Below the pieces are notes generated by a model. That model saw nothing but the letters and a program-made list of their open reading frames with translations, did not search any database and was not told where the DNA came from. Of a stretch of DNA of 25,770 nt, positions 4,159 through 21,111 are shown in pieces; position 1 is the stretch's first letter; every line of letters starts with the position of its first letter. A program made the translations under genes and the position numbers. The stretch is from the NCBI GenBank assembly GCA_003695725.1, contig RFHX01000341.1:1-25770 (forward strand), given 5' to 3'. Source of the stretch: J061 sp003695725 [NCBI: Candidatus Schekmanbacteria bacterium]. Lineage in GTDB: Bacteria; Schekmanbacteria; GWA2-38-11.

Positions 4159-7100
4159 TCATCTAAATGCCGCTAACGGGGAAGAATTCTTTTGTACAAA
4201 TTTTTTTCTCATTTCGATTTCTTCTCTAAGAAGTTTAATATTATTCTGCTGAACTTTTAAGATTTCAGGATTGTTTCTCACAAGATAGTTGTATTTATCA
4301 TAAAGTTTCATCAGAGTATCGAGATACCTTTCTCTTTCTGCTGTACGGCTATTTGAGTTGTCTGCCCGTATTCTGTATTCAGCCGTTGCCTCATTGAGAT
4401 GAAAAAATGCATTATCAAGCGCCAATCTGATGAGCATATCCCAATCTTCGTGCACATCAAAACTTTCATCGAATAGCCCCGCATCTTCTACTGCTTCCTT
4501 TTCTGCCATAAGGGTTATAATTGGGATATAATTTTTCATAAGTAAAAGCGATGGATCAAAATCATTTGTTTTGTATATTTCCTTAACAACTTTCTTTTCT
4601 TCATTATTTAGAAGAAGCTCTTTTACACAATAACAATTGCTGTATGCAACTTTTACATTATTTTTTTGTATTGCGTCGTATAGTTTGTTGAGGTGAGAGG
4701 GATAGAAAATATCATCGTCATCGAGAAATGCTAAATGTTTTCCTCTTGCAATTTTTATGGCGCTGTTCCATGCTGCGCTTCTTCCAAGATTTGTTCCGTG
4801 ATTTACCAATGATATTTTTAGTTTATTCTTATAGTTTGCCGCAATCTCTGTCACATCTGCTCCACCATCGTTTACCAATACTACTTCAAAATCTTTGAAT
4901 TCCTGCTGCACAAGACTTTCCAAGCATTCCTTCAACAAATTAGGCCTATTATAGGTTCTTACAAGAACTGAAACTTTAGGGAATGGTCTCTTATTGTCCG
5001 ACAAAATAGGCAAAGTGAGAATTCTTGAAAATTTCCTTCGATATTTCGTAGAATCATCTCTACCCTTTTTAATCTTGTAGCGGTAAAGTTCTACAAGAGT
5101 TTTTTTGATATGATTTTTTTCTTCCTTACTGAATTTTTCTTCAGCTTTTTCTAAAATATCAATAGCATCATCATAGAGAGAAGAGTTTATTAATAGAGAT
5201 GCGCCTCGCAATAACAACCTTATGTCCTTTGGATTTTTGGTAAAGGCAAGGGTTAAAAACTCGATTACATTTGTAAGATGTCCTAACTTCAAGGCGTCGA
5301 TGCTTTTGAAAGGCGAAGGTGTTTCTCCTGTTTTTCTCCTAAGAAAAAGGATGATATTTTTGATTTCTTTTGTGCATAGCCGGTATGCCCTGATCGTTTT
5401 ACAGATTTTTAATGTCGTTTTACATTCCTGTAAGCATTCATTGTACTTTTTATTTCTATAAAGAAATTTTATGTAAGCAATGCGAAGTTCTATGTTGAGA
5501 GGCAGAAGGTTAAGGGCTTTCTTGTATGTCCTCTCTGCAAACTCGATATCTTCTAAAATATCAGCCAATTCTGCAAGCTCTTTTAAAATCATTCCGCGCT
5601 CACAATTTTTGGAAATAGATTTTTGCCAACATTCATAAGCTTCATACACTTTTCCTTCACTTAGAAGTATTTTGCCAATAAAATACCAGCAAGTAGATAT
5701 ATATAGGTTGTTTGCGGCAAGAAGTCCTCTTTGTGATTTGTTTTCAGAGATCGTGATTAAACAATCATTCAAGATTTTTTTGAAATCTTGAGGTTTTTTG
5801 TGGTGCTCAAAGTGATATAGGCACCACGGATCTAAGTTTTCCGCTCTTTCAGACATTTTACCAATAGCAAGTCTGAAATTCTTTTCTGCCTTTCTGGTTT
5901 CATTGATGGTGAAATAGATAAAAGCTAAATTGAAATATGCCATTGCATAGTCAGGAAATCTTTTTATTGCGCGTTGAAGAATCGCAATCGCATCAGATAG
6001 ATTTTTGTCTTTGTTGAAGTTTTCACTCGTTTTGAAAGCTATTGAAGATTTTACTACAGCCAAGTCGGTTAAGATCTTTGGGGATTCCTGAATGGCTGCC
6101 GCTTTTTCTAAAAGTTCTGCAGATTTGAAAAGATATGAAATATTTCGCGGAATAAAGGTTTCATAAAAATTGTAATAATATGTTTCGGCTTGTCTAATGA
6201 GCTTCTCGGTTTCCGGCAGTTCTTTGAACTGTCTTTTTGTTTTTGAAATAATATCAAGTTTTTCTTCAATAAAGTCTATCAGTTCTTTAAAACGATATCT
6301 GCTTTCAAACTCTCTGTTTACGCGATTAAAACATTTTTTGACTGTTCCCTTACGCAGATTTTCATCATTGAGAAACTTGTCGATTACTTTTTCAAAATCG
6401 CTGTCATCGAACTTTGCATATTCATCGTCATTGAAATATTTTGCTGTTTCTTTCCCTGAATCGAGAACCAATGCACCTTGAGCGACAGCATCGGTAAATC
6501 TAAGTTGAAGCTCTCCTCTTCTGTGGAATGTAAAGACAAGTTTTGATTTTCTCAGGATTTCAAGATATTCTTCAATACTCGAGCCGGGATAATTGATATA
6601 GATGTTATACTTGTCCGATAATTCACAGAGGCGCATCAACCATTTTGATCTATCTAGATGGCTTACATCGTTTATTGAGCCGGTGAAAGAAATATCAAAC
6701 TCTCTCTTTCCAATGGAGTCGATATCTTTGTGAATATGTTCCTTTAGGACGCCAAAATAATGGAAGGGATAAACATTTTTTGCCCCCAGAGATTCAACAG
6801 ATTTTCTTGAATCTTCTCCGAGCACTATCGTCATATCGAATATATCCGCACATGTTTTTGCAATGGCAAGCCTGTAATCCCAATCTGCAGTTATGTTGAT
6901 TATAGGAAAGGGCGCATTTTCTATACCCGGTGGAATAAATAGCCAGTCGATATGGGTACATATGCAGATATCGGGCATCCATCCCTTTGGGAGACGTGAA
7001 ATAATTGTTTCAAATGTATCTTCAGGAGCGCATTTTATATCAACGCCGTCGGCATAACCAAAGGTTATGACTTCATGCCCAAAAAAATTTTTTGTTACAT

Positions 7101-7173
7101 AAGCATCAGGCCAACTTTGAGGCAGTGAAGCCGCTGTAACGGTTTTTCCGAGTCCGAGCAGCAATATTTTCAT
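4159..7173 (-). CDS. CgeB-like glycosyltransferase - TPR - GT2 glycosyltransferase fusion
   Basis: A cytoplasmic bifunctional glycosyltransferase of 1004 residues. I prefer the ATG at 7173 (MKILLLGLGK) with GAGG upstream; an ATG at 7188 lacks a ribosome site. Residues 1-305 are a CgeB-like GT-B domain, including ISFTGSIND near 162 and LRFTDAVAQGALVLDSG near 224-240. Residues about 320-700 are a helical TPR-rich linker with segments such as AMAYFNLAFIYF. Residues about 732-1004 are a GT2 domain with VSVLVRTYNRPN, the metal-binding DDDD at 818-821 and the acidic HEDWD at 908-912. The start lies inside the end of the upstream B12/radical SAM gene (68-base overlap), implying coupling. Third gene of the epimerase operon. 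TPR segments often bind protein substrates, which would fit flagellin as target; the sugar donors are unknown. Confidence 0.87.
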   Translation of the reverse strand: MKILLLGLGKTVTAASLPQSWPDAYVTKNFFGHEVITFGYADGVDIKCAPEDTFETIISRLPKGWMPDICICTHIDWLFIPPGIENAPFPIINITADWDYRLAIAKTCADIFDMTIVLGEDSRKSVESLGAKNVYPFHYFGVLKEHIHKDIDSIGKREFDISFTGSINDVSHLDRSKWLMRLCELSDKYNIYINYPGSSIEEYLEILRKSKLVFTFHRRGELQLRFTDAVAQGALVLDSGKETAKYFNDDEYAKFDDSDFEKVIDKFLNDENLRKGTVKKCFNRVNREFESRYRFKELIDFIEEKLDIISKTKRQFKELPETEKLIRQAETYYYNFYETFIPRNISYLFKSAELLEKAAAIQESPKILTDLAVVKSSIAFKTSENFNKDKNLSDAIAILQRAIKRFPDYAMAYFNLAFIYFTINETRKAEKNFRLAIGKMSERAENLDPWCLYHFEHHKKPQDFKKILNDCLITISENKSQRGLLAANNLYISTCWYFIGKILLSEGKVYEAYECWQKSISKNCERGMILKELAELADILEDIEFAERTYKKALNLLPLNIELRIAYIKFLYRNKKYNECLQECKTTLKICKTIRAYRLCTKEIKNIILFLRRKTGETPSPFKSIDALKLGHLTNVIEFLTLAFTKNPKDIRLLLRGASLLINSSLYDDAIDILEKAEEKFSKEEKNHIKKTLVELYRYKIKKGRDDSTKYRRKFSRILTLPILSDNKRPFPKVSVLVRTYNRPNLLKECLESLVQQEFKDFEVVLVNDGGADVTEIAANYKNKLKISLVNHGTNLGRSAAWNSAIKIARGKHLAFLDDDDIFYPSHLNKLYDAIQKNNVKVAYSNCYCVKELLLNNEEKKVVKEIYKTNDFDPSLLLMKNYIPIITLMAEKEAVEDAGLFDESFDVHEDWDMLIRLALDNAFFHLNEATAEYRIRADNSNSRTAERERYLDTLMKLYDKYNYLVRNNPEILKVQQNNIKLLREEIEMRKKFVQKNSSPLAAFR

Positions 7174-8464
7174 ATTTCCATTCCTCATTTCTTAGATAGG
7201 TTATCATTTCAGACCTTAATCTCATTAGCTCAAAGGTGTTACGATTCTTGGCGACGAATCCTTTATCTATGTCGTCAGGTTCCCAATAAAACCAATAGTT
7301 TTCAAGATCTTCCTTGTCGATTGTAACTCCATATTTTTCAGGATTATTCCAAACATCAGTTCCCGGAAGAGGAATGAATGTTGACATATGCACTTTATCA
7401 GGTTGTGTTTCTTCGAGAAATGCTTTTGTTTCTTCCACTGTCTTTCTGTTTTCTCCGGGAAAGCCAAAAAGGATAAAAACCTTTGTCCTGATTCCGGCAT
7501 TCTTTATTTCCCTAATGGCATTTCTATAATGATCAAGCGTTTCTCCTTTATTCATTCTTTTTAGAAGTTCTTCTGAACCTGTTTCAACACCTATCAGAAG
7601 TTCTTCGCATCCGCTTTTCTTCATCATTCTTAATGTTTCCCTATCTACACGGTCAGCGCGGCTTATGGCGATGTAGGTAATATTTAAAGGCATAAGTTTT
7701 TTGGAAATTTCCATTACCCTTTTCGAATCAAGAGTATAAGTGTCATCCATAAAACGCAAATGGTGAATGTCATAGGTTTCTTTTATATGCCTGACTTCGT
7801 CAGCAACATTTTGAGCCGATCTTGGCCTGTAGATTCTTTTCCAGTGGTTTGTGTCGCAATAAGCGCATTTATAGGGACAACCACGGCTTGTTATTATGGA
7901 GGTTGTATCGACACCTTTCTCACCGTGAACTCCTGATTTGCTCTTTAAAATATTGATTGGAACAAGATGCCTTGCTGGAAATGGAAGAATATCGAGATTC
8001 TTTATGAAAGGGCGTGGTGCATTGATGCATATCTCTTTACCTCTTCTGTATGCAATTCCCCTTATTTCATCCAAAGGGACTCCTTTGGCTATATCGAGCA
8101 TTGTCATTTCGCCTTCACCTATAACTGCAATGTCGATTAAGTTTTCGTCAAGAACCCTTAAAAAATATGAGCTTGCACACGCACCTCCTCCTACTACCAG
8201 AGCATTGCGTCCCTTCTCTTTTTTTATCCTTTCAGCAATTTTGAAGGATTCTTTGAGAACTGCTATGCTGTGTATCGATATTCCATAAATTTCGGCATCA
8301 GGGATCTCTTTTTCTGCATCTTCACAGAAGTTTACATAAGAAACATCAAATCCATATTCTTCAAGGGAAGCCGCTATATATAAAAGTCCTATTGGGGGAT
8401 AAGCAAGTTTGTCCTGCAACCCAGGAGCATCAGGATTGATCAAACAAATTCTGTATTTAGACAT
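7106..8464 (-). CDS. B12-binding-type radical SAM enzyme
   Basis: A 452-residue protein of the cobalamin-binding radical SAM class (class B methyltransferase-like). Residues 1-140 form a Rossmann-type B12-binding-like domain (INPDAPG, PPIGLLYIAASLEE, VVGGGAC, IGEGE); the DxHxxG base-off motif is absent, as in many of these enzymes. The radical SAM core carries C196, C200 and C203 (SRGCPYKCAYC), followed by RFMDDTY and GVETGSEELLKRMNKG, typical of this class. Reactions in the family include C-methylation and ring rearrangements, sometimes on sugars or lipids. The ATG directly follows the TGA of the epimerase gene, and its Shine-Dalgarno AAAGGAGG is embedded in the epimerase 3' end, so the two are coupled. 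In context it may modify a nucleotide sugar or the attached glycan; this is inference. Confidence 0.87.
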   Translation of the reverse strand: MSKYRICLINPDAPGLQDKLAYPPIGLLYIAASLEEYGFDVSYVNFCEDAEKEIPDAEIYGISIHSIAVLKESFKIAERIKKEKGRNALVVGGGACASSYFLRVLDENLIDIAVIGEGEMTMLDIAKGVPLDEIRGIAYRRGKEICINAPRPFIKNLDILPFPARHLVPINILKSKSGVHGEKGVDTTSIITSRGCPYKCAYCDTNHWKRIYRPRSAQNVADEVRHIKETYDIHHLRFMDDTYTLDSKRVMEISKKLMPLNITYIAISRADRVDRETLRMMKKSGCEELLIGVETGSEELLKRMNKGETLDHYRNAIREIKNAGIRTKVFILFGFPGENRKTVEETKAFLEETQPDKVHMSTFIPLPGTDVWNNPEKYGVTIDKEDLENYWFYWEPDDIDKGFVAKNRNTFELMRLRSEMITYLRNEEWKYENIAARTRKNRYSGFTASKLA

Positions 8465-9560: not shown

Positions 9561-10001
9561 TTAAATGAATTTCTTGACTGCTTTTAAATTGTTGTTCAAT
9601 GAAGAAATGAATGCTGTTAGTTCAAATTCCAGTAAATCAGCCATAAGTATCCAGTCTTCTTTTTGTTGAGCATCGAGGATTTCATTTACTGTTGTAAGAA
9701 ATTTTTGTTCTTCGTTAAAAATGATCTCTTTTGCTTTACTGAAATTATCTTCTTCCATATCGAACATTATCTTCAGGTCACTTAACAATTGCGAAATCAT
9801 CTGCAGGTCATCTATTACTGTTGCGAATTCTTCATTTGCAGCTTCCTCATTGCCCATTCTAAAATTGCCTGCAATGTTCATTATTCTGTCATTAGCACTG
9901 AAACAGAATTCTTCTGCTGATAGAATCGCCTGATTTGCAAGCTCATAAAGTTCTTCTTTTGTAATGATTTTTTCATTCTTACAGGCTTCAGATGTAGTCA
10001 T
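9561..10001 (-). CDS. Small helical protein of unknown function, last gene of the glycosylation operon
   Basis: I do not recognise the family. The protein has 146 residues, is acidic and looks entirely alpha-helical, with no signal peptide or membrane segment. The ATG at 10001 is chosen because GGAGG stands seven bases upstream; a TTG at 10028 would place this ribosome site inside the gene. The C-terminal part (LDAQQKEDWILMADLLEFEL, then ISSLNNNLKAVKKFI) looks like a helical hairpin that could bind a partner. It follows the second Maf-N/CgeB gene by 36 bases and is immediately followed by the operon terminator. Its place suggests a chaperone or scaffold for flagellin or for the glycosyltransferases; this is inference from position only. 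Confidence 0.75.
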   Translation of the reverse strand: MTTSEACKNEKIITKEELYELANQAILSAEEFCFSANDRIMNIAGNFRMGNEEAANEEFATVIDDLQMISQLLSDLKIMFDMEEDNFSKAKEIIFNEEQKFLTTVNEILDAQQKEDWILMADLLEFELTAFISSLNNNLKAVKKFI

Positions 10002-10037
10002 TTTTTTTCCTCCATTTAAATTAATCAATGTTTTTCT

Positions 10038-11864
10038 TTAGAGTAAATTTACATTTTTTTCTTCATATCCTTTAGAAAAGTAGACCTCTTGTTCTTTGAA
10101 TGCTTTTTTCATTTCTTCGACAAGAGTATGCATTCTCTTTTCATAGGAATGTTCATTCATCACTCGGTTGAATGCTTTTAAAGAAATTTTCTGCCTTTCT
10201 TTTTCATTTTTTATGTAGAACCTTATCAAATCAGGTATTTCGCCAGTCTCTTTGAAAGATACAAATTCGTCTTCATTGAAAAGTTCATATAAATCCGACT
10301 GATCGTCAGTGATTAGGAAAGAATTACAAGCGGCGCAATCAAATACTCTCTGATTCAAAGCTGAATTCATTTGAAAACTGGTGCAGTTGAGATTTATTTT
10401 TGTTCCATTGTAAACGAGTGCAAGTTCGCTATAATAATCAACTGAATTCCTTATCTTTCTATCATCAACTACATATTTCCATCCTTTATCACCATAGACA
10501 ACACCGCCTTCTTCAATGCCCTTTTTAACTACACTATGCCTGTATTTCATTGTCGTTTTCCAAGTGAGATATGCCGCGGCATTTATAAATGTGTCATTCT
10601 CACTCATTAATTCTGATAAATCGTTGCGCACTTTCTCCTTCATTATTTCTTCAATTGGCTTTTTATGATTAAGCAATTGGATATTGATGATTTCATCCTC
10701 GATCTTTTTTAACTTTTCTATTTCTTTTATCTTCTTTTGCCATTTCTTGACTGCATCGAACATTGAGTTTCCTACGAATGAAATATCTGAAACATATCTT
10801 TTTGGAATCTCTGTAAAAGGCATTGGTTTAAAAAGCTCTGTATCAGCGGCAAGAGGCAGATATGAAACATTACGAAAACCTTTATTTTTCATAGGATTGA
10901 TATAGGTTTTTTCCCACATAAAGATTTTACAGAAATCAGATACATTCTTTTTGTCGTCTTTTAGGGCATAAAAGGGATTGTCCACATACCAAACAGCAAA
11001 AGGAATCTTCATTGAAGAAAGAAGGGATGTAAGGGCTCCGTCCTCATCAAAGCCGAGATGATTGACCGTAAAAATAAAATCAGGTTTAATCTCAAATATA
11101 AGATTTAATAGTTTCTTTATAAATTTGTTTTGGTCTTTGAATTTGATGGGAAAAACATTATGCCCTAAAATCCTAAATGCCTTTATGCATTCAGCAACAG
11201 TAAAGTAAGACGAATCAAATACAATTATATTGAGATTTTGATTCTTAAACTTTTTATAATCGATTATCCTTCTTATTGGGGAGCTGTTCATTTTTATAAT
11301 TTCATCTTCAATTTCTTTGCAGAAATTTGCGCATATCTTTTTTGCCGAAGGATTAATATAAAGTCTCAATGCCTTGAAGCCCCTCTTCATCCTTACTTCA
11401 GCCACCTTTTTGACAACTTCCTTCGCATTCTTTGAAAGGATCAGATGAATATTATTTTGAGAAAGTATTTCTGAAAAATCATGAAGACTAAGAATCTTTT
11501 CCAATATTCTTTTATCGTATTCAATCCAAACTATCTCTTTTTCCATATTCTTCTCAACTAAAGATTCAATGATATATCCAGACCCCGATCCTACAATCAC
11601 CATTATTTCTTCATTTCCCATTTGAAGAAGGGAGGCACTGATACTTTCTCCTTCTCTGTTTGGGTCATAAGAGCTTGAGAGATTCATTTTTTCATCGTTG
11701 CCAAAAGTTACTGAAAGAATTGGCAGAGAATTTTTTGACAATAAGCATTCTAAATGGGCGATTCCCTGCAATTCACATTTACTTTTAGATGAGAGAATTT
11801 CATCATAGATGTATGGATCTCTTGTCTTTAATGCCTTTAGATTTTTTTCCAAAAAATTATTCAT
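10038..11864 (-). CDS. Maf N-terminal domain fused to CgeB-like glycosyltransferase (copy 2)
   Basis: A 608-residue predicted protein glycosyltransferase. Residues 1-190 resemble the N-terminal domain of Maf flagellin glycosyltransferases: the opening EKNLKALKTRDPYIYDEI, then SSYDPNREGE (64-73), the glycine-rich VGSGSGY (91-97) and IVWIEYD. The DUF115/MptE-like core that normally follows is not seen. Instead residues about 210-590 are a CgeB-type GT-B fold: PDFIFTVNH and AVWYVDNPF near 261-298, YLPLAADTELFKP, ISFVGNS (361-367), a nucleotide-sugar site around NQRVFDCAAC (504-513), and HSYEKRM. The start overlaps the stop of the upstream GT9 gene by four bases (ATGA). It is paralogous to the protein at 13585-15402. 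Probable target is flagellin, by analogy with Maf and by operon context; the sugar is unknown. Confidence 0.85.
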   Translation of the reverse strand: MNNFLEKNLKALKTRDPYIYDEILSSKSKCELQGIAHLECLLSKNSLPILSVTFGNDEKMNLSSSYDPNREGESISASLLQMGNEEIMVIVGSGSGYIIESLVEKNMEKEIVWIEYDKRILEKILSLHDFSEILSQNNIHLILSKNAKEVVKKVAEVRMKRGFKALRLYINPSAKKICANFCKEIEDEIIKMNSSPIRRIIDYKKFKNQNLNIIVFDSSYFTVAECIKAFRILGHNVFPIKFKDQNKFIKKLLNLIFEIKPDFIFTVNHLGFDEDGALTSLLSSMKIPFAVWYVDNPFYALKDDKKNVSDFCKIFMWEKTYINPMKNKGFRNVSYLPLAADTELFKPMPFTEIPKRYVSDISFVGNSMFDAVKKWQKKIKEIEKLKKIEDEIINIQLLNHKKPIEEIMKEKVRNDLSELMSENDTFINAAAYLTWKTTMKYRHSVVKKGIEEGGVVYGDKGWKYVVDDRKIRNSVDYYSELALVYNGTKINLNCTSFQMNSALNQRVFDCAACNSFLITDDQSDLYELFNEDEFVSFKETGEIPDLIRFYIKNEKERQKISLKAFNRVMNEHSYEKRMHTLVEEMKKAFKEQEVYFSKGYEEKNVNLL

Positions 11865-13588
11865 CTTATTACCTGAAAAGATATTTTTCCTTTTTTTGAA
11901 TTTTTTCTTTGAACGACTTCAGATGAAAATGTCTTGTAGATTACTTTTTTAAAAAATCGGCAGTTATTTTGGAGCTCTTCCATTAATGCTAAACATTTCC
12001 ATGAAACCTTTGTAGCTTCAGGGTCATCGATACTTTCTCGTTTCATTCTATAAACATCACATATTGGCAATAATTCTTCTGTTGCTAAAGAAAGGCGATA
12101 AATTTCGGCGTCGATTTCAGTCACTCTTTTTGCAAGAAGGGATATATCTGTGCTTACTGCATCTGGAGACTCTGTAAGAGCGCGAATGATTTTTTTTATT
12201 ATTTCCTTCCCTTCTTCTGCAAGTTCAATGATTTCATCGATTCTTTCAATTATTTTCTTTGATTCCTTCTCAACTATGAAATCATTCTCAAAATAGTATT
12301 TCCCGAACCTTACATCGATATTCGATTCCAAAGTTTCGTCGTGCTCTTTTCCAAAATAAACATATTCCCAAAATATTCTGTATATTTCCTTCCAAAAGAG
12401 AGTTTTATTCAGCGGCAGAGGAAATGGAGAAACAAATTCAAGAAATCCTTCACTGTCAAAGCGAGAATAGAATAAATTTGAATTTAAAAAGAGGGTTTTT
12501 GGTTTTTCATTTTTCATCTCTTCATATCCAAGCATTGCTTTTATCGTATAGATGACTTCCTCCGGCAGTACTGTTTCTTTGCAAATTTCATTTTTACATT
12601 TCACATTAAAACTGCATGGCGAACATTTAACATTTGTCTGAATTACATAATGTCCCTCTCCATAGGGGCCAGTTTCCGTATAATTTACCGGTCCAATCGA
12701 TATTTCAATAACCGGCACATTTACTGCGCTCGCAATGTGCATTGTCCCTGTATCATTGGTTATGAGCATTCTGCATCTGGAAATGAAGGCAGGTAGATTT
12801 TTCATTGTCGTTACCCCAGTTGCATCGATGATGTCTTCGCCTGCAATTTTTCTTATTTCCTCTGCGAGATGTGATTCTGCTGATGTTCCAAAAACTACGA
12901 TTTTTGCATCAATTATTTTTTTTATCTTTGAAGCAACTTGGGCAAAATTCTTAACAGGCCATTGTTTATGCGATTTGCTTGCGCCCGGTTGAAGTCCGAT
13001 GAGCAAATCGTCTTTTTTGACATTTTTGGCGGCATAGAAATTTTCAGCTTCAGCAATATCCTCATTATGAAGCTCAAGGAGTAAAGATTTTATAGAATTT
13101 TTTTTGCCTGTTGTGAGGAGATACATATCAACAAGATTAAAAGGATTGAATCTTCTATTGATTGCGGCATTGAAGAAATAAATCATCCAGTCATTCTTGA
13201 TTACCCTGAATCCATTGGGATCTACAGTTATCCCATTTTTATCATTGCAATCCAAGAGGGACATAAGAAATGCGCTCATTTTGGAATGGGTGAGATTGAT
13301 TATCTTTGAAAATCCTTTTCGATTCAGTGATTCGATTTTATTTTTTAAGTCTTTGTAGATTTCAATCAAATTTTTGTTGCTTTCTGAAATCGACTTTGCA
13401 ATTTCTTCAACATCGAATTTGATTATTTCATCTATAAAAGGGAGTCTTTCACAGATTGCCGCAAATTTGGAGTTTGCGAGCATTGTAATTCTTGAATCAG
13501 GGCTTTCTTTTTTAATCTCCTCCAAAAGCGGAGTTGATTGTAAAAGATCACCCATTCGAGCCAAATTTATTATGAGTATCTTTTTCAT
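11861..13588 (-). CDS. GT9 (heptosyltransferase-like) glycosyltransferase with C-terminal extension (copy 2)
   Basis: A 575-residue GT9 enzyme. The N-terminal ARMGDLLQSTPLL (10-22) is the family hallmark, followed by LIGLQPGAS...KQWP (196-211) and the donor-site motif NDTGTMHIA (278-286). A four-cysteine motif C322-x2-C325-x5-C331-x4-C336 follows TGPYGE. Typical heptosyltransferases are about 340-360 residues; here another 220 residues follow, mostly helical and of unknown function. The gene starts within the stop of the upstream Maf-N/CgeB gene (4-base ATGA overlap) and overlaps the next one in the same way. In LPS pathways GT9 enzymes add heptose; in the TibC-type family they modify proteins and use a cysteine metal finger. 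Position in a flagellar operon favours a protein or filament glycan target, but an LPS role is not excluded. Confidence 0.87.
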   Translation of the reverse strand: MKKILIINLARMGDLLQSTPLLEEIKKESPDSRITMLANSKFAAICERLPFIDEIIKFDVEEIAKSISESNKNLIEIYKDLKNKIESLNRKGFSKIINLTHSKMSAFLMSLLDCNDKNGITVDPNGFRVIKNDWMIYFFNAAINRRFNPFNLVDMYLLTTGKKNSIKSLLLELHNEDIAEAENFYAAKNVKKDDLLIGLQPGASKSHKQWPVKNFAQVASKIKKIIDAKIVVFGTSAESHLAEEIRKIAGEDIIDATGVTTMKNLPAFISRCRMLITNDTGTMHIASAVNVPVIEISIGPVNYTETGPYGEGHYVIQTNVKCSPCSFNVKCKNEICKETVLPEEVIYTIKAMLGYEEMKNEKPKTLFLNSNLFYSRFDSEGFLEFVSPFPLPLNKTLFWKEIYRIFWEYVYFGKEHDETLESNIDVRFGKYYFENDFIVEKESKKIIERIDEIIELAEEGKEIIKKIIRALTESPDAVSTDISLLAKRVTEIDAEIYRLSLATEELLPICDVYRMKRESIDDPEATKVSWKCLALMEELQNNCRFFKKVIYKTFSSEVVQRKNSKKGKISFQVIR

Positions 13589-15402
13589 CTTTGAGCAAAT
13601 TCATTCATCATTAAAAATATTTTTTCACTTTGAGAGAGTTTTCCCTCTCCTTTTTCAATTTCTCTTGCGATGTCTTTGATTGAAATGTGCGCATAATTCT
13701 TGAATTTCGATAAGATCTTTAGACATTCTTCATCATCTCCGCATTGCTTAACCAAATTTTTATATGAATTAATGTCAGTATCGGGCTTTTCAAGTTTTAT
13801 TCCCTTGCCGTTTGAGACGACCTTTAGTACTTCTTCCATTCTTTTCAAATAAGTGTGCTCAGAAATTGCCCTATTGCGGGATTTTAAAGAAATTGCCTTT
13901 CTTTCTTCTGGATGAGACAAGTAGTAATCTATCTTTTCTTTTAATTCATCGATATCAGTGAAGCATTCTATTTCTTCTCCAATTTCAAATTGTTCCTTCA
14001 GTAAACTTCTTTTATCAACAAGTTGAAATCCTCCACAGGCAGCAATTTCAAAGATTCTTGGATTCAAGAAATCCCCGTAGGGGTTTACACCGTCATGGTA
14101 TGTCGAGGAATGCAAATTGATATTGATTAAAGCGGCATTGTATATTTTGACGGTATCTTCTATTGAAATTCTTTCACCTTTTCTTTGAACAGTCTTTGCA
14201 TAAAATGGGTCTTCAAGAGGCCAATCGGTCCCCCATATTTTAAAATCGTAATCGGCAAGCTTCTTGAAAAAGATTCTGCGGTTGTAATAGCCAGCTCCCA
14301 TAAATGATATGTCAGACTTGAATTCGCGAATCTCTTCTTCGCTTAATTCTACAGGTTTATGAATTTCAGGGTCACATCCAGTAGGAAGATAGTGGTAATT
14401 CTTGACTCCTGCCGATGATAGGACTCGAAAAAAATCCCCTTTTTGGATGGTAAAGAAATAATCATAAGAAAGGGAAACATTGCGCCAGTAATCCATTAGT
14501 CTAAAATCTTCAACAAACCAGTAGCAAAGGGGAATCTTCAACGGTTTAATCCTATTTATCGCTGAAATGCTGATTGGAGATTGTGCAAGTGAAAATATGA
14601 GATTTGGCTGATTTTCAACTACATTCGATACAAATATTTCTTCAATGAGAGTTAAGAAAAGCCCCTTTAACTTTTCGTTATTTGTTTTATTCGAGGCGGC
14701 ATAATCAAGTTCTTTATAGAGAGGATAGAACTTACTCATATCAAAGCGCTGTACTCTGCATCCAATCTTTTCAAATGCACGGCTTGTATATTCTGCTACT
14801 GGATAAGAGCCGCCATAAAGAGGATAAGTTACCATAACCTTCAATCCTCTGAATTCATCAGAGTTGAAAGGCGTCAGTTTGCTGATGAGTTTTTCGACAT
14901 TTTCCTTTGAGAGGATTTTTTCAATAGGAGGATGAATATAAATAAGAGGATTATTCCCCGCGAGAAGATTTATTTCTTCTATAAACTTATTGGTCTCTTC
15001 TTCGTCAAGAGAAAATAAATTTGTTTTCTTTAGAATATTCGATTGATCACTGAAAGAAAAAACAGATTTCAAAATTCCACAGTTCTTTTCTATTACAATT
15101 ATCTTTTGAAATCCCTTTTTCAGAAATTCATTGATATGGTATCCGAATCCCATTCCAATGACTATCAATGATGAATAATTTTCAACATTCTTATTTTTCA
15201 GGAAATTATCAACTATTGACCTACTTTCACGCAACGGGTCATAGACGCTGTGATAAAGATAGCCATTTACTTTTAAAGTAGGCATTCCGTTTCTTGCATT
15301 GATGACTTCGCACTCTTTTGTTTCTTCTAATGTGAGTATTTTTTCTGCAAGGGGAAGCGAATTTCGTTTAAGCAGCTCTATATTTTGTTCAAATAAATCC
15401 AT
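13585..15402 (-). CDS. Maf N-terminal domain fused to CgeB-like glycosyltransferase (copy 1)
   Basis: A 605-residue paralogue of the protein at 10038-11864. Residues 1-180 look like the Maf N-terminal domain: FEQNIELLKRNSLPLAEKI, NGMPTLKV (38-45), HSVYDPLRES (51-60), VIGMGFGYHINEFLKKG (81-97) and IIVIEKN. Residues about 185-530 are a CgeB-type GT-B domain: VTYPLYGGSYPV, CYWFVEDF, PTGCDPEIHKP, ISFMGAGYYNRR (365-376), NPRIFEIAACGG (447-458) and HTYLKRM. The last 75 residues form a charged helical tail. The ATG at 15402 is preferred because GAGGAG lies just upstream; a TTG at 15414 would put that site inside the gene. It overlaps the upstream GT9 gene by 14 bases and the downstream one by 4. The Maf-like part suggests flagellin recognition (inference). 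Confidence 0.86.
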   Translation of the reverse strand: MDLFEQNIELLKRNSLPLAEKILTLEETKECEVINARNGMPTLKVNGYLYHSVYDPLRESRSIVDNFLKNKNVENYSSLIVIGMGFGYHINEFLKKGFQKIIVIEKNCGILKSVFSFSDQSNILKKTNLFSLDEEETNKFIEEINLLAGNNPLIYIHPPIEKILSKENVEKLISKLTPFNSDEFRGLKVMVTYPLYGGSYPVAEYTSRAFEKIGCRVQRFDMSKFYPLYKELDYAASNKTNNEKLKGLFLTLIEEIFVSNVVENQPNLIFSLAQSPISISAINRIKPLKIPLCYWFVEDFRLMDYWRNVSLSYDYFFTIQKGDFFRVLSSAGVKNYHYLPTGCDPEIHKPVELSEEEIREFKSDISFMGAGYYNRRIFFKKLADYDFKIWGTDWPLEDPFYAKTVQRKGERISIEDTVKIYNAALININLHSSTYHDGVNPYGDFLNPRIFEIAACGGFQLVDKRSLLKEQFEIGEEIECFTDIDELKEKIDYYLSHPEERKAISLKSRNRAISEHTYLKRMEEVLKVVSNGKGIKLEKPDTDINSYKNLVKQCGDDEECLKILSKFKNYAHISIKDIAREIEKGEGKLSQSEKIFLMMNEFAQR

Positions 15403-16975
15403 AATTCTCCTCAACTTGTATTTGGCAGTTTATAGTTAGCTTATAAAGGGCATTTGAAAAATTGTTATGAAAGAAGATTGCATCACTGTATGCATCAGAA
15501 AACTTATGTCTTTCGATATTTCGAAAAAAGAATCTTATTATGTGTGCAAGGGGATGAATGTTCTTCAATGAATTGATCCGTTCGTCGATATTGTCTATTT
15601 CAAAATGTGATTTCCATTGATGGGGAAGTGAAAGAAGGAGTTTTTTCCTGATTTTTACCAGATAATACAAATCGGTAATTCCTTTGTTGTAACTATTGTC
15701 GCTAAATATAAAGTTGATCTTGGAAATTTTATCTAAAAAAGGGTTTTTTGAATCAATGTTATTCATAATATAGAACCAAGTTAATCGTAATTCATCTGTT
15801 AGTTTATTTTCATAATTATGGACATTTCCAAACAATGGCTCACAAGTAATACCAAAGGAATCTTCTTCGGTTTTATAAATAGTTATGTCATTTGGAATGG
15901 TTGTCTCCTGAAGAATTGATTCGTTATTCGATAATATGGAAAGCGAAGTTTTATATACCAATTCTGGTGAGACGGAATTTAGGCATTCTCTATTTATGCA
16001 TTCAATGCTTTCCATACAGGGAGCACATTTCTTAAATGACTGAATAATGTAGTTGTCTTTTGTAAAAGGTCCTGTTTCAAAACAGAATGCCGGTCCAAAA
16101 AATAAGGCAAGTACAGTTGTATCCAAAGATGCTGCAAGATGCATCGTTCCTGTATCACATGTTATCACCAAGTCGGATTGGGAAAGAATTTCAGAAAGCT
16201 CTTTTACCGTCGTTTTGCCGGCTATGTTAACAATTCTTTCATTTTCTGCGGCAGACTGCTTTATTTTTTCAGCCCTTTCCCTCTCTTTTGCTGTCCCTGT
16301 GAGATAGATTTTTACTTTCTTATCATTGAGGAGCATTCTGCATAGCGCTGAAAAATAATTGTCTGGCCAAAATCTTTTTCTATGCCCTGTGGCTGTTTGG
16401 ATAGATATAGTTGTTTCATCATTTTTTCTTTGAGCTTTTTTTTCTTTAGCATTGTTGAAAAAATACCTCGATGGCATTTCAGATGAAATAATTGATCCGG
16501 CACTGTAAAGAAAAATGTCTGAAAGATTTATCCTGTTAAATCTTCTTGTAGAGGTTGATGTAAGTAGGTAATCCATCCATGGAGTCCCGTATATTGTTCG
16601 ACGGTCGTTTTGATAATAAAAGCCAAGTTTTTTTTGAGTGCTTATTGCATCGGCAATAAGACAGGAGAGAGATGAATAATTGAGATTTATAACTTTAGAG
16701 AAATTCATTGAAGAAAAACTTTGGACATATTTTTTCAGTATCTCATATTTCTCGAGTAGAGATATTTCATTCGATGTTGAAATTTCTGCTAAAGATTGAA
16801 TATCTATTGGAATTATTTCATCGACTGATTGGAAGAGATTTGCCAATTCTACAAGATTTTTATCTATAAAGACAGAAATGTGGAAGTTTTTATGCAGTGC
16901 ATTCAACAAAGGAAGACTCTGCAGAAGGTCTCCCATTCTTGCTATTTGTATAACTGCTATTTTTTCTTTATTCAT
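15389..16975 (-). CDS. GT9 (heptosyltransferase-like) glycosyltransferase with C-terminal extension (copy 1)
   Basis: A 528-residue GT9 enzyme, paralogous to the one at 11861-13588. It shows IARMGDLLQSLPLL (11-24), a donor-binding stretch SIQTATGHRKRFWP (191-204), CDTGTMHLA (273-281) and the same four-cysteine spacing C317-x2-C320-x5-C326-x4-C331 after TGPFTK. In place of the common QPGAS motif this copy has QTATG, a possible sign of a different donor. About 170 residues of mostly helical extension follow the GT9 core. The ATG lies 18 bases after the upstream stop with only a weak ribosome site, so translational coupling to the large upstream gene is likely. It is the first member of a GT9 plus Maf-N/CgeB pair that occurs twice in tandem. 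Donor sugar is unknown; heptose is a guess from the family. Confidence 0.86.
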   Translation of the reverse strand: MNKEKIAVIQIARMGDLLQSLPLLNALHKNFHISVFIDKNLVELANLFQSVDEIIPIDIQSLAEISTSNEISLLEKYEILKKYVQSFSSMNFSKVINLNYSSLSCLIADAISTQKKLGFYYQNDRRTIYGTPWMDYLLTSTSTRRFNRINLSDIFLYSAGSIISSEMPSRYFFNNAKEKKAQRKNDETTISIQTATGHRKRFWPDNYFSALCRMLLNDKKVKIYLTGTAKERERAEKIKQSAAENERIVNIAGKTTVKELSEILSQSDLVITCDTGTMHLAASLDTTVLALFFGPAFCFETGPFTKDNYIIQSFKKCAPCMESIECINRECLNSVSPELVYKTSLSILSNNESILQETTIPNDITIYKTEEDSFGITCEPLFGNVHNYENKLTDELRLTWFYIMNNIDSKNPFLDKISKINFIFSDNSYNKGITDLYYLVKIRKKLLLSLPHQWKSHFEIDNIDERINSLKNIHPLAHIIRFFFRNIERHKFSDAYSDAIFFHNNFSNALYKLTINCQIQVEENYGFI

Positions 16976-16993: not shown

Positions 16994-19900
16994 TTAACTG
17001 TTTGCCAATATTCTTTCCCTATGAATTGCTCGTGAGTTGAGATTTCTTCCTTTTTTGATCTTCCGATCTATTTCTTCAAGCAGATCATCAACACCTTCAA
17101 ATTGGGGTTCGAATATTTTGATTCTTTCCAAAAGTTCAATTGATTTTTCATAATCTTCCAAAGAGTAATAAACAGTGGCAAGACTAAAGAGCATATTGAG
17201 GTCTGCAGGATGAAGATTCAGGTATTTTTCAAGATATTTTGCTGCAATTTCCTTTTTATCTAATTCAATAGCGCATTTTACTAAAAAGGAAACACCCTGC
17301 TTGTTGTCAGGGTCAATATCCAATGCATAAGAAAATGTTTCCATCGCTTTTTCTGTGTCTTTTTCTGAAAGCAATGCCATTCCCTTGCCAAGAAGGGCTT
17401 TTAGGTTTTTTGGATTTTTTTCTAAAACCTTTGTAAAATTCCTTTTTGCTTCTTTGAAATTACCTTCAATAAAATGAACAACTCCTTTTCCGATTGCAGC
17501 TTTTTCTGAATTTGGCTCTATTTTTTCTAATTCGCTGTAGCACTTCTTCGCTTCTGTAAGTTTATTCAAACAGGTAAGGGAATCGGCTATTCCCAAGATT
17601 ATTTCTTTATATCGCTCATCTTGAGGGGGAAGGGTTTCCTTGCATTTAATAAAATATTTAAGCGCCTTTTTATAATCTTTCTTTTCACTATAAAAGTTTG
17701 CCAAATCGAGGAGTGATTCTGCTGATTGGCATTGTGTTTCGATTTGGCTGTAAATTTTGTCTGCAGCTTCTAAATTACCAAGCGCTCTATAACATCTTCC
17801 CATTCCTTCCCATAAGGTTAAGTTTGAGGGGTTGTTTTTTAAGATTTCTTTATATTTTTCCAATGCTTGTTCATAGGCGCCTTGTTCTTCATATTTTTTT
17901 ATTTCTTCAAAGAAGATTGGGGTTTTATTCAAATGAGAGGATTCTGCATTTTTTGGATAGGCTTTTATGATAAACTGTATTGTAAAAAGTTCGGTTACAT
18001 CCTTTTTTGTGAGTTTTTCAAGAGTTAAATTTCCGATTTTAATGCTTGTATGCCCTTCTTCGTCATATTTGATGTTTTTTAGTTCTTCTATATTCATAAT
18101 GTTGTTCTTGATTTCCTTAATTTCAAATCCTTGCCTTTCTAACAGACGTTCGATTTCATTGAAGGTGAAAAAACGAAGATGTGTTTTATCCAAGATTCCG
18201 GCTTCCTGGTAAGTCCAGTTGCCTCTTGCTAAGTTTTCAAGAACGGTGATATTTCTAACATTTGGTATGCTAAGGATTATACATCCTGACGGTTTGAGGC
18301 ATTTTTTCAATTTTTCTATGGTCTCTTCGGGAGAAATAAGATGTTCAAGGACATCTCCAAATATGATGCAGTCAAATTTTTTACTTAATTTTTCGGTTTC
18401 AAGGAGAGAGACATCTTCCTCAAAGACTTCTGTTAATCTTTTTTTAGCGATTTTTGCAACAGTCGGTTCCTTTTCAATGCCTATGACTTTTTTCCCTCTC
18501 TTGACAAGCTCATATCCCATCTCGCCTGCGCCACAGCCTACATCCAATATGGTTTCCGCTGAATGCGGAACAATTTCTAAAATATCGCTCCTTTTTTGAC
18601 TGTAATACCCAAGGTCAATATCCTTTCTGCCATTGCCTGATTGCTTGCGTTCTTCTTTACTTCTATAGTTTTTGCCTGATTTGATCAAAAGGCTTTCGAA
18701 AAGTTCATCAAATTGCTTTGAGGTTATTGAAATATCGAAATTTTTTACTGCTCTTTCCCTTCCAAGCTTTGATAGTTTGGCTCTTAGTTCTTCGTTATCG
18801 AATAATTCTTTTATTTTTTCCGCCAACGATTGAGGGTCATTTGGCTGAATAAGAATACCAGAATCGCCAACTACTTCAGGAATTGAACCTGAATATGTGG
18901 AAATAACTGGAAGTCCTGATGACATTGCTTCAACGATTGCCATTCCAAACTGCTCTTTCCAGTTTTCTTTCGGTATGCTTGGAAGTGTAAAGATGTCTGC
19001 GCAACTATAGTATTCTCTCATACTACTGTAGGACGAATGAGGTTCAATTGTGAAATTCTCTTCAAGTGAAAGCTTTTTGATGAGATTTATGACCTTATCT
19101 TTTGCCGGCCCTCTTCCTATCATAAGAAACTTGAGATTTTCTTTGAGGTGAGGATACTTATTGAAAAGAAGTTTTGCCGCATAAAGGATATCGTATATCC
19201 CCTTTTCGTAGACAAATCTTCCAACAAAGAGGACAAGTACATCTTCTTCTGACAATGATAATTCTTTTCTTTTTTTTATTCTCATTTCTTGGGAAGGTGC
19301 GAAGAATTTTGTATCGATACCCATCGGTATCACTGAAATTTTTGATTTGTCAGCGCCTTCCAATTCAAGTGCCTCGGCGGCCCTTTCTGTTACTGCTACA
19401 AATGAGTCGGCAAGGTTGATGACATTCCTTTTATTTGTACTGATATTTTCATTGTCATAGTAAATAAGTGGTATATTTTCCCATTCAAGCACAACTAAGT
19501 TGTTCATAAATTTCTTCTTTGCCACTGCGCATTGAAGTGAGAAAAGCCATGTTATATCTGCTGTAAAGATTATATCTTTATCGAAAAGCTCATATTCCAA
19601 ACCCATTAGGTATATTGGGGACTGTGGATGAGTGGGTAGTTTGACTACCGGGACACCTGCATTATCAAGAGAAAAGTTGTGATTCAAGGTTGTGTAAGCG
19701 GTAATATCGTATTTTTTCGCCAAAGGTTCGTAGTTTTTCAACTCCCATTCGTTTAGATTTGGACCTCTTACGATTGCAATAGAAGGCTTGTTTTTTGGAG
19801 GTGGTGAAAATTGCTTTTCAAGTTTTTTTGCAAGCTGTGCTTTTTCATAAGACCTATCAGGCCTTGGCATTATATTATATTCTCTATAAATTAAATCTTC

Positions 19901-20485
19901 TTCTTTATTGAATCCGCTTCCTTCGATTTTGGAATAAAATCTTGCTTTTTTGCGATAGCGCTCTTTATTGAGAAATCCGTAATGTACGACATAAACATCC
20001 CATTTGGCCACTTCTCCTTCAATGCCGGCAACAACTTCATGGATTTTGTTTACCCATCTTACATTTGGTAGTTTTTTGAAAATTCTGGGACATGCTTCAA
20101 AATTATCGTAGGTTTTTGAATAATAATGAGTATTTCCCACAAGGTTGCATTGCCTGATAGTTACAGCGTTAGCAGTCGTGTTCTCAAGATAATTTTTAAT
20201 ATTATTTTCAAATTCTTCGGAAAAGACTTCATCTGCGTCAATTCGTATTATCCAGTCGCCCGTGCAATTTTCCAATGATATTTGACGTTGTTTCCCAAAG
20301 TCATTTTCCCAAGGTGATTCTATCAATTTGATTCTTTTGTCATCTAAATCAAGAAGTTTTTCCTTTGTTTCGTCCTTGCTGCCGCCGTCAACAATGACTA
20401 TTTCATCTGCAAATGTGCATGATTCAATTGCATTTTCGATAAATTGAGCTTCATTTAAGGCGATCATTGAAACTGAGATTTTCAT
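16994..20485 (-). CDS. Four-domain GT2 - GT4 - methyltransferase - TPR protein
   Basis: A 1163-residue cytoplasmic protein with two glycosyltransferases, a methyltransferase and a TPR region. Residues 1-220 are a GT2 domain of the WaaE-like type: SVSMIALNEAQFIENAI, VDGGSKDET and the metal-binding RIDADE (D83, D85). Residues 233-600 are a GT4 domain: VAVTERAAEALE, PMGIDTKFF, VGRFVYEKG and the E511-x7-E519 motif in EQFGMAIVEA. Residues 615-845 are a class I SAM-dependent methyltransferase: ILDVGCGAG (646-654), CIIFGDVLEHL and LSIPNVRN. Residues about 858-1140 are TPR repeats (YEQALEKYKEILKNNP and similar). The ATG follows AGGAGG, and a sigma-54 promoter stands 36 bases upstream. First gene of the large operon. 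It could add two sugars and cap or decorate with a methyl group while TPRs hold the protein substrate; this is inference. Confidence 0.9.
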   Translation of the reverse strand: MKISVSMIALNEAQFIENAIESCTFADEIVIVDGGSKDETKEKLLDLDDKRIKLIESPWENDFGKQRQISLENCTGDWIIRIDADEVFSEEFENNIKNYLENTTANAVTIRQCNLVGNTHYYSKTYDNFEACPRIFKKLPNVRWVNKIHEVVAGIEGEVAKWDVYVVHYGFLNKERYRKKARFYSKIEGSGFNKEEDLIYREYNIMPRPDRSYEKAQLAKKLEKQFSPPPKNKPSIAIVRGPNLNEWELKNYEPLAKKYDITAYTTLNHNFSLDNAGVPVVKLPTHPQSPIYLMGLEYELFDKDIIFTADITWLFSLQCAVAKKKFMNNLVVLEWENIPLIYYDNENISTNKRNVINLADSFVAVTERAAEALELEGADKSKISVIPMGIDTKFFAPSQEMRIKKRKELSLSEEDVLVLFVGRFVYEKGIYDILYAAKLLFNKYPHLKENLKFLMIGRGPAKDKVINLIKKLSLEENFTIEPHSSYSSMREYYSCADIFTLPSIPKENWKEQFGMAIVEAMSSGLPVISTYSGSIPEVVGDSGILIQPNDPQSLAEKIKELFDNEELRAKLSKLGRERAVKNFDISITSKQFDELFESLLIKSGKNYRSKEERKQSGNGRKDIDLGYYSQKRSDILEIVPHSAETILDVGCGAGEMGYELVKRGKKVIGIEKEPTVAKIAKKRLTEVFEEDVSLLETEKLSKKFDCIIFGDVLEHLISPEETIEKLKKCLKPSGCIILSIPNVRNITVLENLARGNWTYQEAGILDKTHLRFFTFNEIERLLERQGFEIKEIKNNIMNIEELKNIKYDEEGHTSIKIGNLTLEKLTKKDVTELFTIQFIIKAYPKNAESSHLNKTPIFFEEIKKYEEQGAYEQALEKYKEILKNNPSNLTLWEGMGRCYRALGNLEAADKIYSQIETQCQSAESLLDLANFYSEKKDYKKALKYFIKCKETLPPQDERYKEIILGIADSLTCLNKLTEAKKCYSELEKIEPNSEKAAIGKGVVHFIEGNFKEAKRNFTKVLEKNPKNLKALLGKGMALLSEKDTEKAMETFSYALDIDPDNKQGVSFLVKCAIELDKKEIAAKYLEKYLNLHPADLNMLFSLATVYYSLEDYEKSIELLERIKIFEPQFEGVDDLLEEIDRKIKKGRNLNSRAIHRERILANS

Positions 20486-20679: not shown

Positions 20680-21111
20680 TTAAATCGATCCATCAATTAT
20701 CTTAGACTTTTTTACCTTTTTTCCGCCATATCCTTCTATTTGTTTTTTTGCATCGCCAATGCTTTTAATCTTTTTAAGTGTTTCGTCTCTATGGGCATTA
20801 ACAACTTTAAGAGTTTCCTCATCAATTTTCAGGATATTCTTGATCAAAGAAATGACTTTCCCTTGAGCTTCGCTTTCTTCCTTAGATTTAAACTTTTTTC
20901 CCCCTACCCCTTGTTTATCCTTTGATTGCGTTTCTATTGTTTTATCAAGCTTCTCAATTTGGTTTAGTATTTGCTGTCTCATCTCCTGTAGGAAGAGAAT
21001 TCTCGTATAGTTGCTTCTTGCCGCCTCTTTTCTTTCTTCAGAGGCGATATCCTGAATTTTTTGGTAAAGTTGAACCTTTTGGCTTATTAATTTTAACCTG
21101 TTATCATTCAT
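20680..21111 (-). CDS. FliT/FlgN-like flagellar export chaperone
   Basis: A 143-residue, highly charged, all-helical protein directly after fliS. The C-terminal half (ILKIDEETLKVVNAHRDETLKKIKSIGDAKKQIEGYG) resembles the end of FlgN/FliT chaperones, where a long helix is followed by a short G-Y-G tail. FliT-type proteins hold FliD, and FlgN-type hold FlgK/FlgL, before export. The order fliD-fliS-(this gene) is that of fliT in many bacteria, so FliD is the likely client. A Gly/Lys-rich insert (residues about 65-80) interrupts the helical region. The gene starts 15 bases after fliS. The family call rests on position and the C-terminal pattern rather than on strong residue identity, so fliT is not given as a firm symbol. 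Confidence 0.72.
   Translation of the reverse strand: MNDNRLKLISQKVQLYQKIQDIASEERKEAARSNYTRILFLQEMRQQILNQIEKLDKTIETQSKDKQGVGGKKFKSKEESEAQGKVISLIKNILKIDEETLKVVNAHRDETLKKIKSIGDAKKQIEGYGGKKVKKSKIIDGSI

Follow-up and report, generated by a model that had tools for sequence, protein, structure and literature searches.

Results

A run of four glycosyltransferase genes beside flagellar genes

The window analysed here, a stretch of 25,770 nucleotides from the Candidatus Schekmanbacteria bacterium J061 (assembly GCA_003695725.1, contig RFHX01000341.1, positions 1 to 25,770), carries on its minus strand, downstream of genes for flagellin, FliD and FliS, a run of four overlapping genes in which two glycosyltransferases of family 9 (GT9) alternate with two proteins that combine a Maf-N domain with a CgeB-type glycosyltransferase domain. 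An earlier interpretation made from the letters alone, referred to below as the sequence-only reading, had seen in this run a two-gene unit repeated in tandem. In the direction of transcription the genes and the part of interest are:

15389-16975, minus strand: GT9_A, 528 amino acids, heptosyltransferase-like GT9 with a C-terminal extension (PF01075, 95.4 bits)
13585-15402, minus strand: CgeB_A, 605 amino acids from an ATG start, Maf-N, DUF3880 and CgeB-type glycosyltransferase; core gene of the module
11861-13588, minus strand: GT9_B, 575 amino acids, GT9 with a helical C-terminal extension (PF01075, 85.4 bits); usual downstream partner of CgeB_A
11864-12493, minus strand: C-terminal extension of GT9_B, 210 amino acids, mostly helical
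10038-11864, minus strand: CgeB_B, 608 amino acids, Maf-N, DUF3880 and CgeB-type glycosyltransferase; a separate old subfamily, optional

The coordinates of the open reading frames (ORFs) confirm the reported order of GT9_A, CgeB_A, GT9_B and CgeB_B, in which consecutive genes overlap by 14, 4 and 4 bases; the longest ORF of CgeB_A starts with a TTG at 15414, and with this start the overlap with GT9_A is 26 bases. Both GT9 proteins exceed the Pfam cut-off of PF01075 (22 bits), and the residues of R-x-G-D and D-T-G-x-M-H, which we take to be the catalytic motifs of GT9, are invariant across five aligned GT9s. GT9_B and GT9_A stay below the equivalog cut-offs for lipopolysaccharide (LPS) heptosyltransferase II (TIGR02195; 110.6 and 83.9 bits, cut-off 134.6) and I (TIGR02193; 90.7 and 90.6 bits, cut-off 185.3). 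CgeB_A and CgeB_B exceed the cut-offs of Glyco_trans_1_2 (PF13524; 124.3 and 92.9 bits) and DUF3880 (45.4 and 54.8 bits), CgeB presumably being the name of the proteins of these families, and match Maf_flag10_N (PF20157) marginally, with 26.7 and 23.7 bits at a cut-off of 23.5. The sequence-only reading had ascribed the same domain order to both copies, and Pfam detects Maf-N, DUF3880 and Glyco_trans_1_2 in each; none of the four proteins matches the central Maf domain PF01973 at E 0.1. The copies had also been described as clearly diverged, and they are: GT9_A and GT9_B share 32% identity across 366 columns (E 2e-54), CgeB_A and CgeB_B 25% across 617 columns (E 1e-25), and in both cases the global alignment score of A against B is far higher than the scores of 50 shuffles.

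CgeB_A followed by GT9_B is the steady unit

We followed the genes in two sets of genomes. In a sample of 386 genomes, including the window's own, 20 genomes with CgeB_A were picked by hand from scores and spans of a profile search, and a scan of named genomes gave 523 relatives, the best 80 being retained, so that the named loci favour close relatives; a scan of genome contigs with a single protein returned no relative. A first tally comprised 98 loci, 79 of them named and 19 sampled including the window, and became 97 distinct loci, since L158 is the same record as L047. Of the 80 named loci L126 was left uncounted, having no CgeB_A in the mechanical ORF list; L071, labelled CgeB_A by score, was dropped once the tree had placed it elsewhere, and L049 (genome G195) fell under the CgeB_A score limit though its profile hits are adjacent. 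Neighbours are mechanical ORFs (longest, overlap-filtered), a procedure that sets opposite-strand ORFs beside CgeB_A in L035, L054 and L155. The types A and B are best-score labels, with which the tree disagrees for L051, L088, L147 and L113.

Adjacent GT9 and CgeB genes, the recurrence of which in other genomes had been proposed as a check, were found across many phyla. The next gene downstream of CgeB_A encodes a GT9 in 90 of the 97 distinct loci, in 72 of them at a distance of no more than 10 bases or overlapping; for the sample by itself the figures are 13 of 19 called loci or, counted by coordinates, 15 of 20 genomes. By comparison, CgeB_B lies within the fetched stretch in 35 of the 97 loci, in many of the loci it is located upstream or on other contigs, and a GT9 directly precedes CgeB_A in 13. 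The 79 scored named loci are distributed over Nitrospinota (29), Nitrospirota (27), Thermodesulfobacteriota (8), Myxococcota (3), Electryoneota (2) and one each of Latescibacterota, Calditrichota and Verrucomicrobiota, with seven unassigned; these phyla are record names, nearly all of metagenome bins, so that a single bin may be misnamed and three phyla rest on one record each.

The slot before CgeB_A is variable. In the 97 loci it is occupied by a large glycosyltransferase-TPR fusion (39), a GT9 (13), Maf (9), CgeB_B (4) or another gene (20) and could not be assigned in 12, six with a gap of more than 1 kb and six at contig ends. All nine Maf genes were verified as PF01973 with Pfam, and the upstream genes of L035 and L057 that had been classed as other match PF01973 too, the order in L035 being GT9_A, Maf, CgeB_A. 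The complete run in the window's order, with flagellar genes alongside, is found in the sister genome G001 (L032), where its position is also the same, and in a distant genome (L120), while an extra gene stands between GT9_A and CgeB_A in L113 and L128 and an additional GT9 in L113. The order CgeB_B-GT9_A-CgeB_A-GT9_B is found in four loci (L111, L138, L147, L154), the upstream GT9 of L147 scoring slightly nearer to B and falling into the A clade of the tree. By best score the four types are also all present in G099 (L055, L065, L074) and G237 (L056, L064, L073), but in each genome they are scattered across three contigs or stretches. CgeB_B lies behind GT9_B or is fused to it in 10 loci, and in five named ones (L084, L088, L095, L136, L163) Pfam detects a GT9_B-type and a CgeB_B-type part in a single protein, the fused GT9_B-type part being a second copy in L084 and L095. 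Given these varied arrangements of the other genes, CgeB_A followed by GT9_B is the near-constant element and the steady unit, and GT9_A and CgeB_B are optional and mobile.

Further fusions were observed in passing. L084 (3747-7931) and L095 (13080-17324) encode triple fusions of GT9, a CgeB-type part and radical SAM, and the CgeB_A proteins of L033 (8010-10757) and L044 (2461-5340) have an N-terminal extension of about 300 amino acids, which in L033 looks methyltransferase-like by eye.

Cysteine spacing and C-terminal extension of the GT9 proteins

The four-cysteine spacing and the extended C terminus that the sequence-only reading had attributed to both GT9 copies are real. The exact pattern C-x2-C-x5-C-x4-C occurs in 58 of the 62 GT9s directly after CgeB_A, in three of the 13 that directly precede it, including those of the window and its sister, in nine of 34 others and in none of 20 outgroup GT9s, the outgroup consisting, like the CgeB proteins without Maf-N used below, of those found by our own profiles. 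A loose four-cysteine pattern is present in 16 of the 20 outgroup GT9s. The profile reaches the C-terminal extension in 57 of 62, four of 13, 10 of 34 and none of 20 proteins of the same groups, and hhalign identifies the extensions of GT9_A and GT9_B as homologues (probability 97.8, E 1.1e-12). In an AlphaFold2 model the GT9_B extension is mostly helical, with a predicted local distance difference test (pLDDT) score of 87.9, and it has no match in the PDB with E <= 0.001. Exact cysteine spacing and C-terminal extension thus mark these flagellar GT9s against the 20 other GT9s.

Phylogeny of the two copies

Trees were calculated by a quick search without bootstrap, and branches are called supported at a value of at least 95 in the Shimodaira-Hasegawa-like approximate likelihood ratio test; many Nitrospinota and Nitrospirota loci are omitted, and from the CgeB tree also three rows with short domains and one repeated row. 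In the GT9 tree all GT9s beside CgeB_A fall into a clade of 73 rows (support 99), from which the 20 outgroup GT9s and three further GT9s are separated; three of the 34 GT9s in other positions lie on the outgroup side. GT9s of the upstream type, GT9_A, group in a clade with 23 rows (support 96, and 100 in a reduced set), which contains one long-branch downstream row (L113). In the CgeB tree CgeB_A (45 rows, support 98) and CgeB_B (31 rows, one of them unlabelled, support 95) are separate clades, each with many phyla, and L075, L077 and L078, labelled CgeB_B, lie just outside the latter.

We then compared trees in which the A and B copies of the window and L032 were held together with the unconstrained ones by the approximately unbiased (AU) test. 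The sequence-only reading had staked beforehand on the two CgeB copies being each other's closest relatives, and for CgeB this arrangement was rejected (AU p 8e-7). For GT9 it was not rejected in the full set (p 0.076) and gave p 5.9e-6 in the reduced set, which was chosen after the full-set result and has fewer long rows. Joining CgeB_A and CgeB_B against the CgeB domains without Maf-N was not rejected for the glycosyltransferase domain (p 0.26). In a tree of the Maf-N domain, where rows are long and 10 of 52 inner branches are supported, the tree with A and B together was the better one (p 0.74). Judged by these trees, the copies did not arise by local tandem duplication, the nearest kin of each being orthologues in other phyla, and the A/B duplications are old, in line with the age that had been proposed for the split.

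Congruent trees had been suggested as a sign of coevolving pairs, and this expectation held in part. CgeB_A and GT9_B share 18 of 33 splits (36 loci; mean of shuffled trees 0.31), GT9_B and GT9_A eight of 12 (15 loci), CgeB_A and GT9_A eight of 15 (18 loci), CgeB_A and CgeB_B eight of 20 (23 loci), CgeB_B and GT9_A four of 10 (13 loci) and GT9_B and CgeB_B six of 17 (20 loci), with shuffled means of 0.19 to 0.38 over the six pairs and without a species-tree control. Congruence is therefore far above chance, but it extends to all six pairs, being lowest for GT9_B and CgeB_B, and singles out no pairing. Since all pairs travel together, by descent or joint transfer, the result supports a co-inherited module and favours no single pairing.

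Flagellin, Maf and sugar pathways in the genomes with CgeB_A

All 20 sampled genomes with CgeB_A encode flagellin, compared with 150 of the 386 overall (Fisher p 2.7e-9). Maf is present in 10 of the 20 and in 65 of the 150 flagellated genomes (p 0.63) and is thus neither enriched nor depleted among CgeB_A bearers; the ten genomes without Maf include the window's. At E 1e-20 a PseI-like synthase was detected in 10 of the 20, without any match reaching the PseI cut-off, and it co-occurs with Maf (nine genomes with both, nine with neither, one and one with either alone; p 0.001). Among 11 named genomes with GT9_A six have a PseI-like synthase at the same threshold and four genomes of this named set reach the PseI cut-off, so that a general absence of nonulosonic acids alongside GT9_A was discarded. 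The PseI-like matches may be other NeuB-type synthases.

In the window's own genome no Maf exceeds the cut-off, the best match of the Maf family reaching 24.9 bits, and no PseI-like match was obtained at E 1e-20; its NeuB-type match is a 3-deoxy-D-arabino-heptulosonate 7-phosphate (DAHP) synthase, not a nonulosonic-acid synthase. HldE of the ADP-heptose pathway is present over its cut-off.

Genomic surroundings of the module

On the minus strand the genes for PilZ, flagellin, FliD, FliS, a FliT-like protein and a fusion protein of 1163 amino acids precede GT9_A in this order, so that glycosyltransferase genes lie beside flagellin genes here, which is one mark of a flagellin glycosylation island. 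The neighbouring features are:

23883-24740, minus strand: flagellin (Pfam)
21583-23781, minus strand: FliD (Pfam)
21127-21570, minus strand: FliS (Pfam)
20680-21111, minus strand: FliT-like, its FliT match of 23.1 bits being under the cut-off of 29.5
16994-20485, minus strand: fusion of GT2, GT4, methyltransferase and TPR (Pfam), 1163 amino acids, between the flagellar genes and the module
9561-10028, minus strand: small conserved protein, third gene after CgeB_A; the longest ORF starts with TTG, and an ATG at 10001 gives 146 amino acids

The sister genome (L032) has a homologue of the 1163-amino-acid fusion at the same position, and in Nitrospinota (L122, 5627-8995) a counterpart with a CgeB-type domain was observed directly before CgeB_A. 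Behind CgeB_B follow the small protein, an epimerase-like short-chain dehydrogenase/reductase, a B12-binding radical SAM protein and a further large transferase. In 32 of the 97 distinct loci one of the three genes that follow CgeB_A encodes a homologue of the small protein, which, like GT9_A and CgeB_B, is present or absent depending on the lineage. Its homologues come from several phyla, many with an additional N-terminal part, and in 25 aligned sequences an R and two D are invariant and EYE is near-invariant. A four-helix bundle is predicted (pLDDT 90.8). The protein matches no Pfam family over the cut-off (SKA1 18.6 bits, cut-off 29.6), no NCBIfam model at E 1e-5 and no PDB entry at E <= 0.001, and has no kinship to the GT9 extension. 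Elsewhere in the window we observed a 1009-amino-acid protein (4159-7188, minus strand) that combines TPR repeats and a GT2 domain with a CgeB-like part, and a beta-propeller repeat protein (DUF7948, SBBP repeats, CARDB; 3-2915, plus strand), the frame of which is open at the window edge.

Discussion

A co-inherited module probably acting on flagellin

The co-inheritance, adjacency and fusion of these genes and their link to flagella are established, and from what is known of related enzymes we infer a substrate, donors, an order of steps and a role for Maf-N. The genes probably represent an old and widespread module for flagellin glycosylation that acts with or without Maf. The four enzymes would act on flagellin in the cytoplasm before export, like Maf, and the CgeB enzymes would hold flagellin with the help of their Maf-N domain. 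By analogy with known flagellin glycosylation, including that of Aeromonas Fgi-1, the transferases would add sugars one after another to give one short glycan, with ADP-heptose or a similar activated sugar as the likely donor of the GT9s. In those lineages in which CgeB_A-GT9_B follows a Maf gene the pair would extend what Maf starts; in the present genome, where neither a Maf over the cut-off nor a nonulosonic-acid synthase was found, the glycan would have to be started by one of the four enzymes or by a neighbour. Only tentatively do we propose a widespread route free of Maf and nonulosonic acids, in which GT9_A or a Maf-N CgeB starts the glycan on flagellin, perhaps with a heptose, and CgeB_A-GT9_B extends it, as it may elsewhere after Maf.

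Several observations weigh against this interpretation. The Maf-N matches barely exceed the Pfam cut-off, the best PDB match of this region is a spermidine synthase (E 0.0013), followed by Maf 5MU5 (E 0.014), and in two sampled genomes (G026, G158) the CgeB_A protein matches in its glycosyltransferase part alone. Both GT9s stay below the cut-offs of the LPS heptosyltransferase models, so that ADP-heptose is no more than a candidate donor, and since HldE also serves LPS, heptose on flagellin stays a suggestion. The fetched stretch includes flagellin, FliD or FliS in no more than 18 of the 97 loci, so that the flagellar link is often one at genome level, and the absence of Maf and NeuB from the window's genome is possibly an assembly gap, the genome being a draft of 374 contigs that is 98% complete.

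Alternative explanations

The tandem arrangement first read into the window, an old duplication of a GT9-CgeB unit with GT9_A plus CgeB_A and GT9_B plus CgeB_B each adding a different sugar, fits the local gene order and draws on the kinship of the copies: the two GT9s belong to one clade of 73 (support 99) with the same exact cysteine spacing and homologous extensions, the two CgeBs have the same domains, a single CgeB clade was not rejected for either domain (p 0.26 and p 0.74), and GT9_B and CgeB_B are fused in five loci. Two equal units are nevertheless unlikely, as the near-constant pair CgeB_A-GT9_B (90 of 97) cuts across them, whereas CgeB_B (35 loci) and a directly upstream GT9 (13 loci) are optional and CgeB_B is often upstream or on another contig. 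Moreover, the order CgeB_B-GT9_A-CgeB_A-GT9_B of four loci fits units of CgeB_B plus GT9_A and CgeB_A plus GT9_B equally well, and in the free CgeB tree domains without Maf-N fall between the two CgeB clades (support 98). The proposed link of GT9_B and CgeB_B survives insofar as they are neighbours or fused in 10 loci, but theirs is the least congruent pair. A very old duplication of a pair may still have taken place, given the p of 0.26 for CgeB_A plus CgeB_B against CgeB without Maf-N. A recent local duplication in this lineage is suggested by adjacent paralogues in the same order and the full-set GT9 test (p 0.076), yet we regard it as extremely improbable: CgeB refutes it (p 8e-7), GT9 speaks against it in the reduced set alone (p 5.9e-6), and orthologues of all four genes exist in other phyla.

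The genes might instead build a general surface polysaccharide or part of LPS, with a flagellar neighbourhood that is due to chance or shared regulation. CgeB-type genes do occur in other places surrounded by numerous other transferase genes, as in L071 and L072, and 79 of the 97 loci show no flagellar gene in the fetched stretch; however, the presence of flagellin in 20 of 20 sampled bearers, the separation of the module GT9s from 20 other GT9s (support 99) and a Maf gene directly upstream in nine distinct loci make this improbable. A further possibility is that GT9_A, standing directly before CgeB_A, substitutes for Maf and starts the glycan on flagellin. Maf is found in one of seven sampled genomes with a GT9 of this type directly upstream and in nine of the 13 other bearers (Fisher p 0.057, above 0.05), and of the 11 named genomes whose locus includes GT9_A, 10 have no Maf at E 1e-10, the eleventh having a weak match of 44 bits. 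On the other hand, among the 11 sampled genomes whose locus contains a member of the GT9_A clade, five carry Maf (G153, G053, G195, G326 and the long-branch G158), on account of which we do not retain strict replacement as the main interpretation. GT9_A, Maf and CgeB_A also stand together in L035, Maf is missing from six of seven checked Nitrospirota bearers without GT9_A, in which the upstream gene is of the TPR-fusion or CgeB_B type, and six of the 11 named GT9_A genomes have the PseI-like synthase. Substitution therefore appears rather doubtful.

Relation to known systems

Maf transferases (PF01973 plus PF20157; PDB 5MU5) resemble CgeB_A and CgeB_B in their flagellar loci and the Maf-N domain and stand just before CgeB_A in nine loci, whereas the CgeB proteins carry a CgeB-type glycosyltransferase domain where Maf has PF01973. 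The LPS heptosyltransferases 1PSW and 2GT1 and the GT9 structure 3TOV share the GT9 core with the invariant R-x-G-D and D-T-G-x-M-H; the module GT9s differ from the LPS enzymes by falling below the equivalog cut-offs and by their helical extension, exact cysteine spacing and own clade. Heptosyltransferases of the bacterial autotransporter heptosyltransferase (BAHT) family such as TibC have, according to the accessible text (PMC4358343), a GT-B-like catalytic domain, a protein acceptor and a four-cysteine site, but their cysteines 339, 342, 358 and 370 are spaced 2-15-11 and those of the module GT9s 2-5-4. TibC is not among the PDB matches of the GT9s at E 0.001. A TibC-type iron finger was therefore dropped as a reading of the GT9 cysteines, the spacing being different and a looser four-cysteine motif occurring in 16 of 20 outgroup GT9s.

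In the Aeromonas flagella glycosylation island a second transferase, Fgi-1, is, by the accessible text, required for the sugars after the first (PMC7874193), and a further transferase thus extends a flagellin glycan as proposed here; Fgi-1 is a GT-A protein of 327 amino acids, and the main text mentions neither CgeB nor heptosyl. Geobacillus flagellin glycosylation islands likewise combine Maf with several glycosyltransferases at the flagellin locus, but these are described as GT2 and GT4 enzymes (one unclassed, one ManC), with CgeB, heptosyl and 'family 9' unmentioned in the main text (PMC5109656). The accessible text of PMC4875605 mentions neither CgeB nor heptosyl.

Searches for literature on CgeB together with flagellin glycosylation or GT9 found none, a broader match being a glycovaccine review (PMC4396375); those on GT9 and flagella matched other subjects, judged by title, and no work on heptose on flagellin is among the matches listed, judged by titles and the beginnings of abstracts. 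The flagellin glycosylation literature that we found deals, in its accessible parts, mostly with Maf and nonulosonic acids in few cultivated genera. The statement of the sequence-only reading that no such unit had been described accordingly stands for a literature in which subscription papers were mostly outside reach. Within that reach, the module is a hitherto undescribed form of the known flagellin-glycosylation islands.

In records that bear the names of eight phyla, a pair of genes from families other than Maf thus indicates probable flagellin modification. Should the module act on flagellin, it would be a genome marker for this trait and would raise the question of which enzyme starts the glycan where Maf is missing, as in half of the sampled bearers. 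The occurrence of Maf-N on two different catalytic domains would, in turn, point to Maf-N as the part that recognizes flagellin.

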